Origin: Verrucomicrobiota bacterium
GTDB lineage: Bacteria > Verrucomicrobiota > Verrucomicrobiia > Limisphaerales > JACQFS01
Direction of reading: 5' to 3'
Assembly (NCBI GenBank): GCA_016199935.1
Contig: JACQFS010000087.1
Span: 1-41,264, forward strand
Length of the DNA: 41,264 nucleotides
The notes beneath the pieces were generated by a model. The model had not been told where the DNA came from, did no database searches, and worked only from the letters and a program-made list of their open reading frames with translations. Made by a program: the position numbers and the translations under genes. Below, in pieces: positions 6,019 to 29,105 of this stretch (its first letter is position 1; every line of letters starts with the position of its first letter).

Positions 6019-6090
6019 CGGTAGCAGCCGACGTAAGGAGGCTCTGGCTTTTCGGATTCGGATGGAGCCTCCTCACGTCGGCTGCTACCG
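6019..6090. repeat. Palindromic repeat, family 1 version A (complete inverted pair)
   Basis: Inverted repeat with arms 6019-6044 and 6065-6090 (26 bases each, 25 matching) around a 20-base loop. The arm core reads GTAGCAGCCGACGT then A(A/G)GGAGGCTC. The only mismatch is at arm position 15, A in the left arm and G in the complement of the right arm. As RNA from the minus strand this would be a G-U wobble. Further arms of this family lie at 24605, 28756 and 29066, and a second version at 12792-12860. Confidence 0.9.
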
Positions 6091-6098
6091 AATTTTTG

Positions 6099-6130
6099 GC
6101 GCGGGCCGCGAGGTCCGCGCTTTTCTTTTT
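6099..6130 (+). terminator. Rho-independent terminator after the DUF1080 gene
   Basis: Nine-pair stem GCGCGGGCC (6099-6107) and GGTCCGCGC (6112-6120) with the loop GCGA and one G-U pair, followed directly by TTTTCTTTTT (6121-6130). This is a textbook terminator for plus-strand transcripts and separates the DUF1080 gene from the first ThuA gene. Confidence 0.8.
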
Positions 6131-6168
6131 CAGCGATTTCACGCCATGCTTCGCCAACAACTCCTGAC

Positions 6169-7083
6169 ATGAAAAAACTCCTCCTCGCCCTGGCCGCCTT
6201 CGCCGCCGCCTTCGCCGCCGCCTTCACCGCCACCGCCGCCGACCAGAAAATTATCTTCATCGCCGGCAAGCCCAGCCATCCGCCGCTCGCGCACGAGCAT
6301 CGCGCCGGCTCGTTGCTGCTCGCGAAATGCCTGCAAGGTTTCCCCGGCGTCATCACGGAGGTTCACACCAACGGCTGGGTGCAGGATGAAGCGGCGCTCG
6401 ACGGCGCGGCCGCCGTGGTCATCTACAGCGACGGCGGCGTCAACCATCCGGTGCTGCTCGATGATCGTCTCGCCAAACTCGGCGCGCTGATGAAGAAAGG
6501 CGTGGGCCTCGCGTGTCTCCACTTCGCCACCGAGCCGACGCCGGACAAGGGCGAGCAGGAATTCCTCGGCTGGCTCGGCGGCGCGTTCTCGCCGAACTGG
6601 TCGGTGAATCCGCATTGGGACGCCGACTTCACCACGCTGCCCAAGCATCCCATCACGCGCGGAGTGCATCCGTTCAAGACGAATGACGAATGGTATTTCC
6701 ACCTGCGCTGGGCCGAGGGCATGAAAGGCGTCACGCCCATCCTCACCGCCATCGCGCCGCCCGACACGATGAGCCGACCCGACGGACATCACAGCGGCAA
6801 TCCCGCCGTGCGCGAGTCCGTGGCGAAGCAGGAGCCGCAACACGTCGGCTGGGCGATGGAGCGCGCCGACGGCGGACGCGGCTTTGGCTTCACCGGCGGC
6901 CACAATCATCTCGGCTGGAAAGACGAAAACCAGCGCCGCCTCGTCCTCAACGCCATCCTCTGGGTCGCGAAAGTCGAAGTGCCGAAGAACGGCGTGCAGT
7001 CGAAAGTCACCGACGAGGATTTGATGGCGAACCTCGACGTGAAGCGCGCGCCGAATCCCAAGGCGGCGGCAAAGAAGAAGTAG
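6169..7083 (+). CDS. Secreted ThuA-domain protein, paralog 1
   Basis: ThuA-like protein of 304 residues, a class I glutamine-amidotransferase-like fold named after a rhizobial trehalose-utilisation protein. The signal peptide is unusual: KK followed by an Ala/Phe-rich repeat (AAFAAAFAAAF) to about residue 24. Hallmarks are AGKPSHPPLAHEHRAG near residue 30, IYSDGG, NPHWDADF, DEWYFHLRW and GRGFGFTGGHNH. The tail is Lys/Ala-rich. It closely resembles the product of 7428-8324 and the first 290 residues of the 9381-12785 product, down to the conserved EVPKNGVQSKV segment near the C-terminus. This gene stands between a terminator and a palindrome-rich gap, so it may form its own transcription unit. 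The catalytic activity of secreted ThuA proteins is not established; keto-sugar processing is inferred from neighbours. Confidence 0.87.
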   Translation: MKKLLLALAAFAAAFAAAFTATAADQKIIFIAGKPSHPPLAHEHRAGSLLLAKCLQGFPGVITEVHTNGWVQDEAALDGAAAVVIYSDGGVNHPVLLDDRLAKLGALMKKGVGLACLHFATEPTPDKGEQEFLGWLGGAFSPNWSVNPHWDADFTTLPKHPITRGVHPFKTNDEWYFHLRWAEGMKGVTPILTAIAPPDTMSRPDGHHSGNPAVRESVAKQEPQHVGWAMERADGGRGFGFTGGHNHLGWKDENQRRLVLNAILWVAKVEVPKNGVQSKVTDEDLMANLDVKRAPNPKAAAKKK

Positions 7084-7427
7084 GAGCGCGGGCGGCCCGC
7101 CCGCGAGTCCCGCGCCCTGAAAGGGCGCACGCTGGTAGCCACGGGTGAGCGGAGCGAACCCGTGGACGCCGTGGAAAAAGGGAATTCCCCGCCCCAACAG
7201 GGCGGACGAAATGCGCCTCCGAAATCCACTGGCCTTGTCCTCGATCTCACGTGCGCTCCTTCGGAGCGCGATCGTTTCTTTCGCTCACCACCACGGGTTC
7301 ACTCTGTTCACCCGTGGCTACCTTCGTCCGCTCCTTCGGAGCGAACCCAGGACGCCCTGCGGTATTCCCCATCACAATCCGCATTGAAGCCCGCCGCGAT
7401 TCGCCTAGTCTGATCACCACACTGAAC
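7084..7427. repeat. Gene-free 344-base gap filled with palindromic repeats
   Basis: No gene was found here. From left to right the gap holds a 9-base perfect palindrome pair (7087-7095 with 7097-7105), a hairpin GCGCCCT-GAA-AGGGCGC (7112-7128), and a 32-base repeat at 7134-7165. An inverted copy of that repeat lies at 7291-7322 (29 of 32 positions match), and each copy is itself a palindrome (CCACGGGT with ACCCGTGG). Two further hairpins share the core CTCC-TTC-GGAG: 7253-7269 and 7329-7343. No T-run follows the hairpins, so they are not typical terminators. The AT-richer end (7360-7427) may carry the promoter of the next gene, but no convincing boxes are seen. Confidence 0.85.
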
Positions 7428-8324
7428 ATGAAACGTCTCCTCCTCCTCGCCATCGCGCTCGTCGCGTTCAATTCCTCCGCCGCCGAGCAGCCGCGCAAGC
7501 TCGTCATCATCGCCGGCAAGCCGAGCCATCCGCCGGGGATGCACGAGTTTCGCGCCGGCTCGTTGCTGTTGGAGAAATGCCTGAAGCAGGGCTATCCGAA
7601 ACTCAAAGTGGAGGTTCACACCAACGGCTGGGTGAGCGACGAGAAAACTTTCGCCGATGCCGACGCCATTTTCATTTATGCCGACGGCGGTGCGAAACAT
7701 CCCGCCGTCGTGGACGGTCATCTGGAAACACTCCGCGCGCTGATGAAACGCGGCGTGAGCCTCGGCTGCGGTCACTACGGAGTGGAAGTGGTGCCCGACC
7801 AGGGCGGCGCGGAGTTCAAGGAATGGATCGGCGGCCATTACGAGAACCAGTTTTCCTGCAACCCGATCTGGGATGCGGACTACAAAACATTTCCCAAGCA
7901 CGCGATCACGCGCGGCGTGAAACCCTACACGACGAAGGACGAGTGGTATTTCAACATGAGGTTCCGCGATGACCTGAGCGGCATCACGCCCATCCTCGTC
8001 GCCAAGCCGAGCGATACGACGCGCGACGGTCCCTACGTTTATCCGAAGGGGCCGTATCCGCACATCCAGGCCGCGAAGGGCCGCGCCGAGACTATGATGT
8101 GGGCCGTGGAGCGCGCCGACGGCGGACGCGGCTTCGGCTACACCGGCGGACATTTCCACGCGAACTGGGGAAACGACCAGCAGCGCAAGATCATCCTCAA
8201 CGCACTCGTCTGGCTCGCAAAGGCCGAGGTGCCGAAGAACGGTGTCGAGTCGAAGGTGACAGAGGTCGACCTCGCCGCGAACCTTGACCCGAAGCCCGCA
8301 CCCAAGCCAGCGGTGAAGAAGTAA
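7428..8324 (+). CDS. Secreted ThuA-domain protein, paralog 2
   Basis: Second small ThuA-like protein, 298 residues from the ATG at 7428. That start gives a clean signal peptide (MKRLLLLAIALVAFNSSAA). The frame is open further upstream into the repeat region, but that extension has no coding character. Domain landmarks repeat those of the neighbour at 6169: AGKPSHPPGMHEFRAG, IYADGGAKHPAV, NPIWDADYKTF, DEWYFNMRF, and GRGFGYTGGHFHANW, ending in EVPKNGVESKV. The HFHANW form is closer to the giant ThuA protein at 9381 than to paralog 1. Its stop codon lies only three bases before the GTG start of the dehydratase gene, so the two are probably co-transcribed and translationally linked. Secretion contrasts with the cytoplasmic partner. 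The activity is unknown; the family assignment is firm. Confidence 0.87.
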   Translation: MKRLLLLAIALVAFNSSAAEQPRKLVIIAGKPSHPPGMHEFRAGSLLLEKCLKQGYPKLKVEVHTNGWVSDEKTFADADAIFIYADGGAKHPAVVDGHLETLRALMKRGVSLGCGHYGVEVVPDQGGAEFKEWIGGHYENQFSCNPIWDADYKTFPKHAITRGVKPYTTKDEWYFNMRFRDDLSGITPILVAKPSDTTRDGPYVYPKGPYPHIQAAKGRAETMMWAVERADGGRGFGYTGGHFHANWGNDQQRKIILNALVWLAKAEVPKNGVESKVTEVDLAANLDPKPAPKPAVKK

Positions 8325-8327
8325 TCG

Positions 8328-9305
8328 GTGCTGCGGACCGGAGCGCTTCCCGTGTTCACTCCCGCTGAATTTCAAGAAGCGTCTGCACTCGTCTATCGCA
8401 CGCTTTCACCCACGGCGCAGATTCACTGGCCGTTGTTGAGCCAGCGCGCCGGGTGCGAGGTGTGGGTGAAGCACGAGAACCACCATCCCACCGGCGCGTT
8501 CAAGGTGCGCGGCGGTCTCGTCTATCTCGATCACCTGAAGCGCACACGTTCCGGCCTGCGCGGCGTCATCACGGCGACGACCGGCAATCACGGCCAGAGC
8601 ATCGCCTTCGCGGGCGCGCGCCTCGGCATCCCCGTCACCATCTGCGTCCCGTTCGGCAACAGCGTGGAGAAAAATGCCGCGATGCGCGGCTACGGCGCGG
8701 AGTTGATCGAGGTTGGGCACGATTTCCAATCGGCGCGTGAGGCCGCGACCCAGCTCGCGGCCGAACGGAGTCTCGAAGTAGTCCCGTCATTTCACCCGCT
8801 CCTTGTGCGCGGCGTCGCGACTTGCGCGCACGAACTCTTCACGGCGCGGCCGGAGCTCGACACGGTCTATTGCCCCATCGGTCTCGGCTCCGGCGTCTGC
8901 GGTCTCGTCACCATGCGCGACCAACTCGGCCTGCGCACGCGCGTCGTCGGCGTCGTCGCCGCGGGCGCGCCGGCATACGCAAAGTCATTTGCCGCGGGAC
9001 GTGTCCTCGCCAGCGACGAGGTGAACACGATGGCCGAGGGCGTGGCCGTGCGCATGCCGGACGCCGACGCGCTCGCGGTCATCCGGCGCGGCGTCGAGCG
9101 CATCGTGGAAATCACCGAGCCGGAAATTGAAGCCGCCATCCGCGCGTATTTCACCGACACGCACAACGTCGCCGAGGGTGCCGGCGCCCTTGCCCTCGCC
9201 GCTTTGCTGAATGACCCGCCGGCGCAACGGGGCAAGCGCGTCGGGGTGATCCTCTCCGGCGGAAATATTGATCGCCCCCGCTTCGCGAAAATCCTCGCCG
9301 GCTGA
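8328..9305 (+). CDS. PLP-dependent threonine/serine dehydratase-like protein
   Basis: Fold-type II pyridoxal-phosphate enzyme of the threonine dehydratase / serine racemase group, 325 residues from GTG at 8328. A second in-frame GTG at 8352 would give 317 residues and a more usual N-terminus (VFTPAEF). The Schiff-base lysine is Lys59 in HPTGAFKVRGG. The substrate loop TTGNHGQS is intact. The phosphate-binding glycine loop reads GLGSGVCG, less glycine-rich than the usual GGGG form. No ACT domain follows, so it is the short, non-allosteric type. Such enzymes deaminate threonine or serine to a 2-oxo acid and ammonia; related short forms are racemases or act in ectoine use. It starts three bases after a secreted ThuA protein, an unexpected pairing. 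Substrate uncertain. Confidence 0.83.
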   Translation: MLRTGALPVFTPAEFQEASALVYRTLSPTAQIHWPLLSQRAGCEVWVKHENHHPTGAFKVRGGLVYLDHLKRTRSGLRGVITATTGNHGQSIAFAGARLGIPVTICVPFGNSVEKNAAMRGYGAELIEVGHDFQSAREAATQLAAERSLEVVPSFHPLLVRGVATCAHELFTARPELDTVYCPIGLGSGVCGLVTMRDQLGLRTRVVGVVAAGAPAYAKSFAAGRVLASDEVNTMAEGVAVRMPDADALAVIRRGVERIVEITEPEIEAAIRAYFTDTHNVAEGAGALALAALLNDPPAQRGKRVGVILSGGNIDRPRFAKILAG

Positions 9306-9380
9306 AATCCAAACCCACGCACCATTCGTCCGAACAAAATCTCGCCTCACCCGTCCATCCTTGCTCTGATTTCAAAACCT

Positions 9381-12300
9381 ATGAAACCGAACCCGCGTCT
9401 CGCTCCGCGTCTCGTCGCCTTTGCGCTGCTCTTGCTCCTCGCGCTGCCGCTCGCGGCGGCGGACAAAAAAATCGTCCTGCTCGCCGGGCACGCGAGCCAC
9501 GGCTCGGGCCAGCACGAGTTTCGCGCCGGCTGCCTGCTGCTGAAGAAATGTCTCGATCAGGTTCCCGGCATCAACGCCGTCGTCATCGAGTCGGGCTGGC
9601 CCGCGGATGAGAGCGTGTTCAACGGCGCCGACGCGGTGTTCATTTACTCCGATGGCGGTGGCAGCCATTTCGCGATCAAACCCGAGCGGCTCGCGGTGCT
9701 CGACGCGCTTGTGAAAAAAGGCGTCGGCCTCGGCTGCGCGCACTACGCCGTCGAGGTGCCGAAGGACCACGGCGGTCCCGAGTGGCTCGCGTGGACCGGC
9801 GGTTACTTCGAGACGTTCTGGTCGGTGAACCCGCATTGGGACGCGGACTTCAAATCGTTTCCGTCGCACCCGATCACGCGCGGCGTGCAACCATTCAAGA
9901 TAACGGACGAGTGGTATTACCACATGCGTTTTCCCGACGGAATGAAGGGCGTCACGCCACTCCTCACCGCGGTCCCGCCCGACAGCACGCGCGGTAAGCC
10001 CGGCAAAAGCGACGCGCACGGCGGCAATCCCGAAGTGCAGAAACACGCGGGCGAACCCGAGCACGTGATGTGGTGCATGGACCGGCCCGATGGCGGACGC
10101 GGCTTCGGTTTCACCGGCGGACATTTTCACAAGAACTGGGCCGAGGAAAATTTCCGCCGCGTGGTGCTCAACGCGATGTTGTGGATCGCCAAAGTCGAAG
10201 TGCCCGCGGGCGGCGTGCAGACGAAACTCTCCGACGACGATCTCAAGGCGAACCTCGACAAGAAGGACGCGCCAGCTTCTACCGCGAAGCCTGCCGCGCC
10301 CGCGCCGAAGTTCACCGCGGCACCGAAGTTCAAGAGCGGCATCGTCACTGCGAAGACCGGCAACCCGACCAAGGTGGACGTGGACCTGACGGGCGCGAAG
10401 GATTTGTTCCTCGTCGTGAGTGACGGCGGCGATGGCATCGGCTGCGACTGGGCGGACTGGGTGAATCCCGAGCTGACGCGCGCGGACGGCTCGAAGGTGA
10501 AGCTTACCGAACTCAAATGGGAGTCGGCGGTTGCGAGCCACGGCCAGGTGCGCGTGAATCGGAACAACGCCAACCAACCGCTCCGCATCGCCGGCCGGCC
10601 CTACGAAAACGGCTTCGGCACGCACGCGAAGTCGGTCATTCATTTCGAGTTGCCCGGCGCGAAGTTCGCGCGCTTCACCGCGCTGGCCGGGCTCGACAAC
10701 GGCGGCACGGATCAGGGCTGCGGCTCGACGGTGGAATTTCTCGTCTTCACCGAAGCGCCGAGTCCGACGGCAATCGCAGCCGTCGCCGCGATCGCCACCG
10801 GCGCAGAAGGCCGCGCCGGTCCCGCGGCCGCGAAGGCTTTCATGAGCACGATGACCGCCGCGGCCGGCCTCGAAGCCACGCTCTTCGCCAGCGAGCCGAT
10901 GCTCGTGAATCCCGCCGACATGGACGTGGATGCGCACGGCCGCGTGTGGATCACCGAGGGCGCGAACTACCGCAAATGGTCCACGCTCCGTCCCGAGGGC
11001 GACCGCGTCGTGATCCTCGAAGACACGAATTGCGACGGCGTCGCGGACAAGTCCACGACCTTCTATCAAGACCCGAGCATCAACACCGCGCTCGGCATTT
11101 GCGTTTTGGGCAACAAGGCGATCGTCTCGTGTGCGCCGAATGTTTTCCTGCTCACCGACACGAAAGGCACCGGCGTCGCGGACAAGCGCGAGTTGCTGTT
11201 CACCGGCATCGAGGGCCATCAACATGATCACGCGATCCACACGTTCACGTTCGGGCCGGACGGAAAACTCTATTTCAATTTCGGTAACGCCGGCCGGCAC
11301 CTGCGTCGTCCGACGGGCAAGTTGAAGGACATTCCGTTGCACGGGGAAATTTCCGCCGAGGATATCAAGGCGAACAGCGAGCCCGTCATTGACCTCGCGG
11401 GCAACGAAGTCAGCGACGCCGGCAAGCCTTACCGCGACGGGATGGTTTTCCGCTGCAATCTCGACGGCTCCGAGGTCGAGACGCTCGGCTGGAATTTCCG
11501 CAACAACTACGAGGTGGCCGTGGATTCTTTCGGCACGCTCTGGCAGTCCGACAACGACGACGACGGCAACAAAGGCGTGCGCATCAATTACGTGATGGAG
11601 TTCGGCAACTACGGCTACAAGGACGAGATGACGGGCGCCGCGTGGAAGGCCGACCGCACCGGCATCGAGGAGGAAATTCCGCGCCGCCACTGGCATCTCA
11701 ACGACCCCGGCGTGGTGCCGAATCTGTTGCAGACCGGCGCAGGCTCGCCGACAGGCATCCTCGTTTACGAAGGCAAGCTGCTGCCGAAAATTTTCCAAGG
11801 CCAGGTGATTCATTGCGACGCCGGCCCGCGCGTGGTGCGCGCGTATCCGGTCAAGCGCGACGGTGTGGGTTACTCCGCCGAGATCGTGGACGTGCTGACG
11901 AGCAGCGACACGTGGTATCGCCCGTCGGACGTGTGCGTCGCGCCCGATGGCTCGCTCTACATCGCCGACTGGAACGACGCCGGCGTGGGCGGCCACAACA
12001 TGGCCGACCGCGAACTCGGCAACATGACCGGCCGCGTCTATCGCGTTGCGCCGAAGGGCAACAAGCCCGCCCTGCCGAAGCTGGATTTGAACTCTGCGAA
12101 GGGCTGCGTCGAGGCGCTGCAATCGCCGAACCTCGCGCGCCGGTATCTCGCGTGGACGAAGCTGCACGAGATGCAAGGCGCGGCGGAGAAGGAGCTGCTG
12201 AAGGTTTGGAACGGCAGCGAGCCGCGGATGCGCGCGCGCGCGTTGCAGTTGCTCGCGCGGATCAAGGGCGGCGAGAAGAAATACGTGGAGGCCGCGTTGA

Positions 12301-12785
12301 AGGACAAGGATGAGGACCTCCGCGTGACCGGCCTGCGCATCGCGCGCTCGCTCAAGCTCGACGTGATCCCGCTCGTGAAGCAACTCGCGAAGGATTCCTC
12401 CGCCGCCGTCCGTCGCGAGTGCGCCATCGCGCTGCGCCATAACAAATCTTCCGAAGCCCCGAAGCTCTGGGCCGCGCTCGCGCAGCAGCACGACGGCAAG
12501 GACCGCTGGTATGTCGAGGCGCTCGGCATCGCCGCGGATCAGCAGGACGACGCGTTCTTCGCCGCGTGGCTCTCGGCCGTCGGCGGCAACTGGAACACGC
12601 CCGCCGGCCGCGACATCGTGTGGCGCTCGCGCAGCAAGCAGACGCCCGCGTTGCTCGCGAAGATCATCAACGACAAGTCCACGACGGAAAAAGAAAAGCC
12701 GCGCTACCTGCGCGCGCTGGATTTCCACACCGGCCCCGAGAAGGACGCCGCGCTCGTCGAACTGCTCACGGGCGGGACGAAGTGA
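9381..12785 (+). CDS. Secreted multidomain ThuA-NPCBM-PVC propeller-HEAT protein
   Basis: Protein of 1134 residues with a signal peptide (to about residue 27). Domains in order: ThuA (28-290, with GQHEFRAG, NPHWDADF, GRGFGFTGGHFH); an NPCBM-type carbohydrate-binding module (about 315-455, with YENGFGTHAKSVIHFELPG and LDNGGTDQG); a PVC-type membrane-bound dehydrogenase beta-propeller (about 487-895, with FASEPMLVNPADMDVDAHG, GRVWITEGANY, DNDDDGNKG and SLYIADWNDAG); and HEAT-like repeats (about 903-1120). Homologous propellers usually continue into a C-terminal cytochrome c domain. Here the frame stops at TGA 12783-12785 and the heme domain is the next gene in the same reading frame. It probably binds a glycan and oxidises a sugar in the periplasm, passing electrons to that cytochrome. 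This role is inferred. Confidence 0.88.
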   Translation: MKPNPRLAPRLVAFALLLLLALPLAAADKKIVLLAGHASHGSGQHEFRAGCLLLKKCLDQVPGINAVVIESGWPADESVFNGADAVFIYSDGGGSHFAIKPERLAVLDALVKKGVGLGCAHYAVEVPKDHGGPEWLAWTGGYFETFWSVNPHWDADFKSFPSHPITRGVQPFKITDEWYYHMRFPDGMKGVTPLLTAVPPDSTRGKPGKSDAHGGNPEVQKHAGEPEHVMWCMDRPDGGRGFGFTGGHFHKNWAEENFRRVVLNAMLWIAKVEVPAGGVQTKLSDDDLKANLDKKDAPASTAKPAAPAPKFTAAPKFKSGIVTAKTGNPTKVDVDLTGAKDLFLVVSDGGDGIGCDWADWVNPELTRADGSKVKLTELKWESAVASHGQVRVNRNNANQPLRIAGRPYENGFGTHAKSVIHFELPGAKFARFTALAGLDNGGTDQGCGSTVEFLVFTEAPSPTAIAAVAAIATGAEGRAGPAAAKAFMSTMTAAAGLEATLFASEPMLVNPADMDVDAHGRVWITEGANYRKWSTLRPEGDRVVILEDTNCDGVADKSTTFYQDPSINTALGICVLGNKAIVSCAPNVFLLTDTKGTGVADKRELLFTGIEGHQHDHAIHTFTFGPDGKLYFNFGNAGRHLRRPTGKLKDIPLHGEISAEDIKANSEPVIDLAGNEVSDAGKPYRDGMVFRCNLDGSEVETLGWNFRNNYEVAVDSFGTLWQSDNDDDGNKGVRINYVMEFGNYGYKDEMTGAAWKADRTGIEEEIPRRHWHLNDPGVVPNLLQTGAGSPTGILVYEGKLLPKIFQGQVIHCDAGPRVVRAYPVKRDGVGYSAEIVDVLTSSDTWYRPSDVCVAPDGSLYIADWNDAGVGGHNMADRELGNMTGRVYRVAPKGNKPALPKLDLNSAKGCVEALQSPNLARRYLAWTKLHEMQGAAEKELLKVWNGSEPRMRARALQLLARIKGGEKKYVEAALKDKDEDLRVTGLRIARSLKLDVIPLVKQLAKDSSAAVRRECAIALRHNKSSEAPKLWAALAQQHDGKDRWYVEALGIAADQQDDAFFAAWLSAVGGNWNTPAGRDIVWRSRSKQTPALLAKIINDKSTTEKEKPRYLRALDFHTGPEKDAALVELLTGGTK

Positions 12786-12791
12786 TTACGC

Positions 12792-12860
12792 GTAGCAGTC
12801 GAGGTAACGAGACTCCATCTGATCGAAATGAAGTTGGAGTCTCGTCACCTCGACTGCTAC
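12792..12860. repeat. Palindromic repeat, family 1 version B (complete inverted pair)
   Basis: Arms 12792-12817 and 12835-12860, 25 of 26 positions complementary, around a 17-base loop. Compared with version A at 6019-6090, arm positions 1-24 differ at exactly four places: 8 C to T, 12 C to G, 17 G to C and 21 G to A. Both arms changed together. Positions 8/21 and 12/17 are symmetric within the arm, so they also stay paired inside each arm. The position-15 mismatch is kept. It lies 6 bases after the propeller gene stop. Confidence 0.9.
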
Positions 12861-22710: not shown

Positions 22711-22790
22711 CGGAGCGGCGACACTCTTGTCGCCGTCGTCATCCCAATTTCAGAATGAGGAACGAGGGCGACAAGAGTGTCGCCCCTCCG
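22711..22790. repeat. Palindromic repeat pair, GGCGACACTCTTGTCGCC family
   Basis: Arms 22711-22737 and 22764-22790, complementary at 25 of 27 positions. Each arm is also a hairpin (8-pair stem, four-base loop). The two differences between arms, at positions 6 and 25, are a C-G pair in one arm and G-C in the other, so each arm keeps its own stem. It lies between gluQ and the first duplicated gene. Confidence 0.85.
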
Positions 22791-24604: not shown

Positions 24605-24629
24605 AGAGCCTCCTCACGTCGGCTCCTAC
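24605..24629. repeat. Single arm of palindromic repeat family 1
   Basis: Matches the right arm of family 1 version A (24 of 25 positions). The one change is at arm position 5 (C to G on the minus-strand reading). It lies six bases after the icd stop and has no partner arm nearby. Confidence 0.85.
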
Positions 24630-28727: not shown

Positions 28728-29105
28728 GTGGGGAGCGGGGGCGGGTTGAAGCTGGGTAGCAGCCGACGTGAGGAGGCTCTAACTGCTTTCGGTCACGATG
28801 CCGTCGCGACCTGTCACCCGCGTCGGATTTCGCAAGCGCATCGAACATTCTCACCCCTCACCCCGGCCCTCTCCCCGTTGAGGGGAGAGGGAGAACCTCC
28901 GGCCGCGCGTCGCATCCGTTGATCGCCGTGATCATCGGATGCCCGAACGCGACCTCCCTCTCCCCTCAACGGGGAGAGGGATTGAGGGTGAGGGGTGAGG
29001 ACGCCCGTGGGGCCACCAATTTCGAGGGAGTCGCCATTAACAGTCGCCCACACAAACACTCAGTCAGAGCCTCCTCACGTCGGCTGCTACTTTTTTCGGC
29101 GCGGC
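28728..29105. repeat. 378-base gap with a nested composite of palindromic repeats
   Basis: Convergent gap between the lipoprotein and aldehyde dehydrogenase genes, with no gene seen. Outer inverted repeats (family 1, version A) lie at 28756-28785 and 29061-29090: 25 bases are identical and 29 of 30 match overall. Inside is a second inverted pair, 28850-28891 with 28956-28999. Its cores (28867-28891 and 28956-28980) are perfect 25-base complements, and each core is itself a hairpin with ten-pair arms CCCTCTCCCC/GGGGAGAGGG. Total length is 335 bases. No direct target duplication is visible at its edges. Confidence 0.9.

Follow-up and report, generated by a model that had tools for sequence, protein, structure and literature searches.

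What is a long hairpin that occurs twice in one stretch of bacterial DNA, in two versions whose differences leave the pairing intact? The question is raised by a contig from the draft genome of a Verrucomicrobiota bacterium (order Limisphaerales; GCA_016199935.1, JACQFS010000087.1), of which positions 1 to 41,264, the whole stretch analyzed, are here called the window. Two hairpins, A at 6019-6090 and B at 12792-12860, share a 24-base arm (GTAGCAGCCGACGTRAGGAGGCTC in A, GTAGCAGTCGAGGTRACGAGACTC in B) with mismatches at positions 8, 12, 17 and 21 only, and the changes at the mirror pairs 8/21 and 12/17 compensate each other inside each arm; these claims of a preliminary description were verified in the window sequence. 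Both hairpins are copies of a REPIN (REP doublet forming hairpin), a dispersed repeat of two inverted repetitive extragenic palindromic (REP) units with GTAG outermost. REP-associated tyrosine transposases (RAYTs) are HUH nucleases like E. coli TnpAREP. With a probability that we put at roughly 0.93, the repeat of the window belongs to a REPIN-RAYT system in the Verrucomicrobiota.

The arm is abundant in the window's own genome (G000; 5.03 Mb in 260 contigs, 97.7% complete), where 178 copies were found with up to 3 mismatches and none with the reversed pattern. A covariance-model search, which had been proposed for finding further copies, did find them: a model built from the arms gave at least 150 matches at E below 0.01 in this genome, a lower bound because 150 candidates were scored. 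In the examined regions of the genome and the window, 47 arm pairs form REPIN units, mostly of 66-102 nucleotides (nt). Among 116 genomes of the same order, 69 carry the arm, in 1 to 453 copies each, while a sample of the wider phylum contained it in 8 of 289 genomes, the own genome included and some with a single match only. A search of Rfam gave no match. The element thus shows what defines REPs and REPINs, namely a short GTAG-footed palindrome in many dispersed copies and inverted doublets, with an intergenic position that was checked for the window copies.

The 24-nt arm begins with the GTAG foot (1-4), followed by a stem of 4-5 base pairs (5-9 with 20-24), a core of tandem G·A/A·G (10-11 with 18-19), the pair 12/17 and a GTNA loop (13-16). 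Pair 5/24 is formed in many genomes and is absent from the main arm types of the own genome. When the core was left free in the scan, GA/GA was found in 92 of 96 own-genome arms. By the states of 8/21 and 12/17, the own genome has 71 arms with C-G/C-G, 17 with T-A/G-C and 3 with C-G/G-C, and the last type indicates that the two pairs are separable. One of these pairings is broken in 2 of 93 own-genome arms. The dinucleotide CT stands at positions 28-29, 4 nt beyond the arm, in 50% of the own-genome arms, compared with about 5% at most neighboring positions. A literature search on tandem G·A hairpins of DNA found nothing with the terms used.

Within the window, allowing up to 3 mismatches, the arm pattern occurs seven times, against 0 in 100 shuffles, and all seven arms are intergenic relative to predicted genes:

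6021 to 6044, plus strand: left REP arm of REPIN A, GTAGCAGCCGACGTAAGGAGGCTC, with C-G at 8/21 and C-G at 12/17; CT at 6048-6049, 4 nt beyond the arm.
6065 to 6088, minus strand: right REP arm of REPIN A, GTAGCAGCCGACGTGAGGAGGCTC; the palindrome reaches out to 6019-6090.
12792 to 12815, plus strand: left REP arm of REPIN B, GTAGCAGTCGAGGTAACGAGACTC, with T-A at 8/21 and G-C at 12/17; CT at 12819-12820.
12837 to 12860, minus strand: right REP arm of REPIN B, GTAGCAGTCGAGGTGACGAGACTC; CT on the minus strand at 12833-12832.
24606 to 24629, minus strand: lone REP arm, GTAGGAGCCGACGTGAGGAGGCTC, a pattern match; no nearby partner was found with up to 6 mismatches.
28756 to 28779, plus strand: left arm of a wide REPIN (335 nt overall), GTAGCAGCCGACGTGAGGAGGCTC; CT at 28783-28784.
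29067 to 29090, minus strand: right arm of the wide REPIN, GTAGCAGCCGACGTGAGGAGGCTC, a pattern match.

To follow the compensated changes beyond the window, a scan pattern was used that left positions 5-8, 12, 15, 17 and 21-24 free, so that compensation was not presupposed; pair 9/20 was set by the pattern and is uninformative. Among 115 distinct arms, covariation across many genomes was found at 5/24, 6/23, 7/22, 8/21 and 12/17. Paired cells made up 89.0%, compared with 62.6% after column shuffling and 28-44% when the register was slid; cells altered on both sides numbered 170 versus 58, and the covariation score was 0.61 versus 0.05-0.10 in slid registers. Placed on a tree of the RAYTs described below, the states of the five pairs require at least 3 to 10 changes per pair, so the pattern is not a single old difference passed on to many copies. 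Exceptions without compensation are present, chiefly A·G and A·A at 8/21. One recurrent arm type, GTAGGAGACGACGTNAGGAGACTC, has A opposite A at 8/21 (loci L234, L236, L258 and L294; genomes G036 and G080) and is uncompensated there yet multiplied.

A rival explanation is that the long two-arm hairpin is the structure under selection, acting in RNA as a stabilizer of 3' untranslated regions, an attenuator or a terminator, or in DNA as a cruciform. The long hairpins are indeed very stable, with predicted folding energies of -54.7 kcal/mol for A and -48.1 kcal/mol for B (z about -10 for both), and the window copies are intergenic. REPIN A has the end of a 3-keto-disaccharide hydrolase gene, with its stop codon, on one side and a terminator-like hairpin on the other, and may well be transcribed as a result. 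The comparison of arms within one REPIN distinguishes the two structures. In 64 of 110 distinct REPINs the arms are unlike at pairing positions; the differences affect a mirror pair as a whole 79 times and only one of its members 21 times, and broken pairs amount to 39 of 880 within arms and 179 of 880 at the positions between arms. Pairing within the arm is thus mostly kept where pairing between arms is lost, which makes the single-arm hairpin the unit under selection, each arm folding separately, and the long hairpin is a by-product of the inverted arrangement. Single arms also occur, and the arm adjoins its own RAYT in tens of genomes. The preliminary description had taken the long hairpin as a kept structure, which these mirror-pair differences contradict; selection on it as the main cause was rejected, and we regard it as quite improbable.

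The same set of REPINs was used for position 15, where an A/G asymmetry had been described as conserved. In both window copies one arm does carry A and the other G, but this does not hold generally: the arm pairs read AA 27 times, GA 24, AG 21 and GG 14, with others besides, and the 45 A/G pairs are no excess over the 40.5 expected by chance. The proposed asymmetry was rejected, and the loop reads GTNA.

The candidate partner enzyme was found in related genomes. Most PF01797 matches in the order belong to IS200-like genes or to RAYTs adjoining other REP families; as a positive control, the RAYTs among them were found beside GTAG- or GGAG-tagged hairpins of their own and not beside this arm. 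These searches, with some 40 Y1/RAYT loci at which no RAYT adjoined the arm, had made the absence of a partner enzyme look possible, and this view was overturned by lower-ranked matches to NF047646, among which were three RAYT genes amid 5, 11 and about 12 copies of the arm. An alignment of these three and one close relative was used to search the 116 genomes, and the RAYT clade so defined was found in 22 of them; at 15 loci its gene is flanked on both sides by the arm. Of 80 named loci of the clade, mostly from Limisphaerales, Pedosphaera and 'Verrucomicrobia subdivision 3' genomes, 46 are flanked by the arm on both sides and 51 on one side or both, one mismatch allowed. The earlier proposal of a REP-like element with a RAYT-type transposase is supported by this clade between arm copies, along with the copy number and the covariation of mirror pairs across genomes.

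The clade proteins are about 190 amino acids long, with conserved HUH (H69-x-H71) and tyrosine (Y128) motifs in the numbering of alignment A2. A Pfam search of two members gave no match, and with NF047646, a narrow family model, members score at most about 62 bits, short of its 80-bit cut-off. Pfam misses the partner clade and NF047646 ranks it low, and a Pfam-based survey can miss the RAYT of an abundant repeat. The only sequence match of the clade in the PDB is E. coli TnpAREP (4er8, E=3.6e-9), which also ranks first among the fold matches to the AlphaFold model of a clade RAYT, at only about 20% identity.

Arm number follows the enzyme, with a median of 48 arms per genome where the clade is present and 1 where it is absent (Mann-Whitney p 1.4e-8). 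This bears on a host-owned nucleoid element, for example a site for gyrase or IHF, that would be maintained for its role in chromosome structure without being spread by a RAYT. REPs do serve secondarily as such binding sites (PMC6006769), and the window copies stand at gene ends. Against this, the arm is patchy within one order (0 to 453 per genome), its copy number is tied to the RAYT clade, and arms are inserted in frame within RAYT genes; such an origin is considered highly improbable. The in-frame arms lie at the same place between the HUH and tyrosine motifs in L256 and L259 and past the tyrosine motif in L216, and all three are filled sites relative to empty relatives.

A further reading takes the arms as terminal inverted repeats of a miniature element that depends on an ordinary (DDE) transposase; such an element would likewise have inverted terminal arms around a short interior of variable sequence. 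It should be bounded by target duplications, and one was seen around 1 of 46 REPINs (1.7 expected), so there is no target duplication, the outcome that a TnpAREP-like mechanism predicts. The GTAG foot, the linkage to a HUH/tyrosine gene and the occurrence of single arms also speak against it, and no DDE gene turned up between arms, though no search by name was made. We give this explanation a negligible probability.

Very probably, on the analogy of known RAYTs, the arm is a non-autonomous mobile repeat spread by the RAYT clade that it flanks in related genomes. A clade RAYT with the same arms was also seen at L283, on a contig labeled Bryobacteraceae (Acidobacteriota), which reflects either horizontal transfer or misbinning.

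Several observations weigh against the assignment to this REPIN-RAYT system. A cognate RAYT amid arms was sought in the own draft genome and none was found, so the check for a RAYT (Y1) gene succeeded in related genomes and failed at home, and the link between arm and RAYT is drawn from the relatives. The only piece of the clade in the own genome is a 64-amino-acid fragment, truncated by the end of contig C5 and standing beside hairpins beginning GTGGCCG. Possible explanations are loss of the gene, an assembly gap at a repeat or a related RAYT acting in trans. Arm-rich genomes without a clade match exist, such as G036 with 376 arms; G080, of the same genus, has the arms as well as the enzyme. 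The CT at 28-29 is less frequent, at 28%, at RAYT loci of other genomes. Calculated DNA folding energies of the main own-genome arm types as arm hairpins were no better than those of shuffles, under nearest-neighbor rules that give the tandem G·A core no credit, and folding energy was dropped as an argument for the arm hairpin.

The core of the stem differs among RAYT lineages. Arms adjoining clade RAYTs, in a scan that left the core free and demanded GTNA and so did not test the loop, have the tandem G·A in 145 cases, two Watson-Crick pairs at the same place in 59 and other cores in 12. By locus, the 80 named loci divide into 49 with tandem G·A, 18 with Watson-Crick cores and 13 with neither, many of the last bearing another form of hairpin beginning with GTAGCGGC. 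The choice between tandem G·A and Watson-Crick core sorts with the RAYT tree: about six changes are needed, far below shuffled labels and at least four of them forced by well supported branches, a rough count given a quick tree with some long branches. Tentatively, and with somewhat less than even confidence, the core may be a specificity switch, in which RAYT lineages alternate between G·A/A·G and, at the same register under the GTNA loop, two Watson-Crick pairs, giving a readable code between arm and enzyme with each REPIN arm recognized separately. In other genomes the Watson-Crick type GTAGCCGCCGACGTSAGTCGGCGC flanks RAYTs, that of L195 among them, and a cousin-type REPIN with this core is present in the own genome (L136, 2813-2883).

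E. coli TnpAREP binds the folded single strand, needs GTAG and the stem irregularity, and cleaves at a CT on the 5' or the 3' side of the hairpin (PMC8266576). Each of these features has a counterpart here: the GTAG foot, an irregular core that is conserved, and a CT close by. From that work (PMC8266576) we infer binding, CT cleavage and mobility for the present arm. In single-stranded DNA, each arm would fold alone into a GTAG-footed hairpin with the G·A core and GTNA loop. The RAYT would bind this hairpin with its foot, cut at the nearby CT and then rejoin strands, and arms or doublets could in this way reach new sites without target duplication. Arm and enzyme change jointly, through compensated stem changes and a core type that goes with the RAYT lineage.

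Other repeats were observed in the window and its genome. The wide REPIN at 28756-29090 has a counterpart of 334 nt in the same genome (L113, 2042-2375), and the spacers of both contain inverted repeats of the CCCTCTCCCC type, so that one repeat may sit inside another, or the whole may be a larger separate element. The inverted repeat at 22711-22790, beginning with CGGAGCGGCGACACTCTTGTCGCC, is a second REP family of the window; its core is shared with GGAGGGGCGACACTCTTGTCGCCC, which flanks a RAYT gene in another genome (G002, L095). A third family is possibly represented by the inverted repeat at 7113-7165 and 7291-7343 with GTAGCCACGGGTG and CACCCGTGGCTAC, the former also occurring near a weak NF047646 match in G104 (L193). 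Among the RAYT-type genes of the own genome, those on C16, C97 and C172 adjoin other GTAG repeats and that on C184 is without a repeat. IS200-like Y1 genes on C260 and C171 (L031, L032) are bounded by inverted repeats beginning with AGCTCCGTAGGAGCG and CACCCCGCTTTAGCGGGGTG, which are unrelated to the arm.

To our knowledge, recognition of REP hairpins by RAYTs has been resolved biochemically in few systems only. The clade offers 80 named enzyme genes, most with repeats alongside, with compensated stems and a two-state core, and is a natural data set for hairpin choice by a single-strand DNA enzyme. The arm data also separate the single-arm from the two-arm hairpin, usually confounded in REPINs, and favor the single arm.

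REPINs, RAYTs and GTAG repeats in Verrucomicrobia were already known (PMC3116915, PMC3733652, PMC6006769). The papers searched gave no account of this arm family with its G·A core, of its RAYT clade or of arm-level covariation, though identity with one of the repeat families of Opitutus terrae is possible. The GTAG repeats of O. terrae and other species (PMC3733652) are alike in their GTAG tag, in several families per genome and in their occurrence in Verrucomicrobia. In-frame REP insertions in a RAYT gene are known from RAYT/TnpAREP subclass 2.4 (PMC6006769); of the three loci with such insertions here, L256 and L259 resemble these in having them between the HUH and tyrosine motifs, and L216 differs in that its insertion lies past the tyrosine motif. 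The REPINs of Pseudomonas fluorescens SBW25 (PMC3116915) are likewise dispersed, intergenic, RAYT-linked units of two inverted REPs with a short variable spacer, but have another arm sequence and another RAYT, and here arm types mix freely within one REPIN. The E. coli REP/TnpAREP system (REPtron; 4er8; PMC8266576) shares the GTAG foot, an imperfect hairpin with a conserved non-Watson-Crick stem irregularity (AA-GC in E. coli), a HUH/tyrosine gene flanked by repeats, inverted doublets and CT near the hairpin. Besides the low protein identity given above, a further difference lies in the irregularity, for which the present arm has a tandem G·A/A·G core near its GTNA loop, swapped whole for Watson-Crick pairs in other RAYT lineages.

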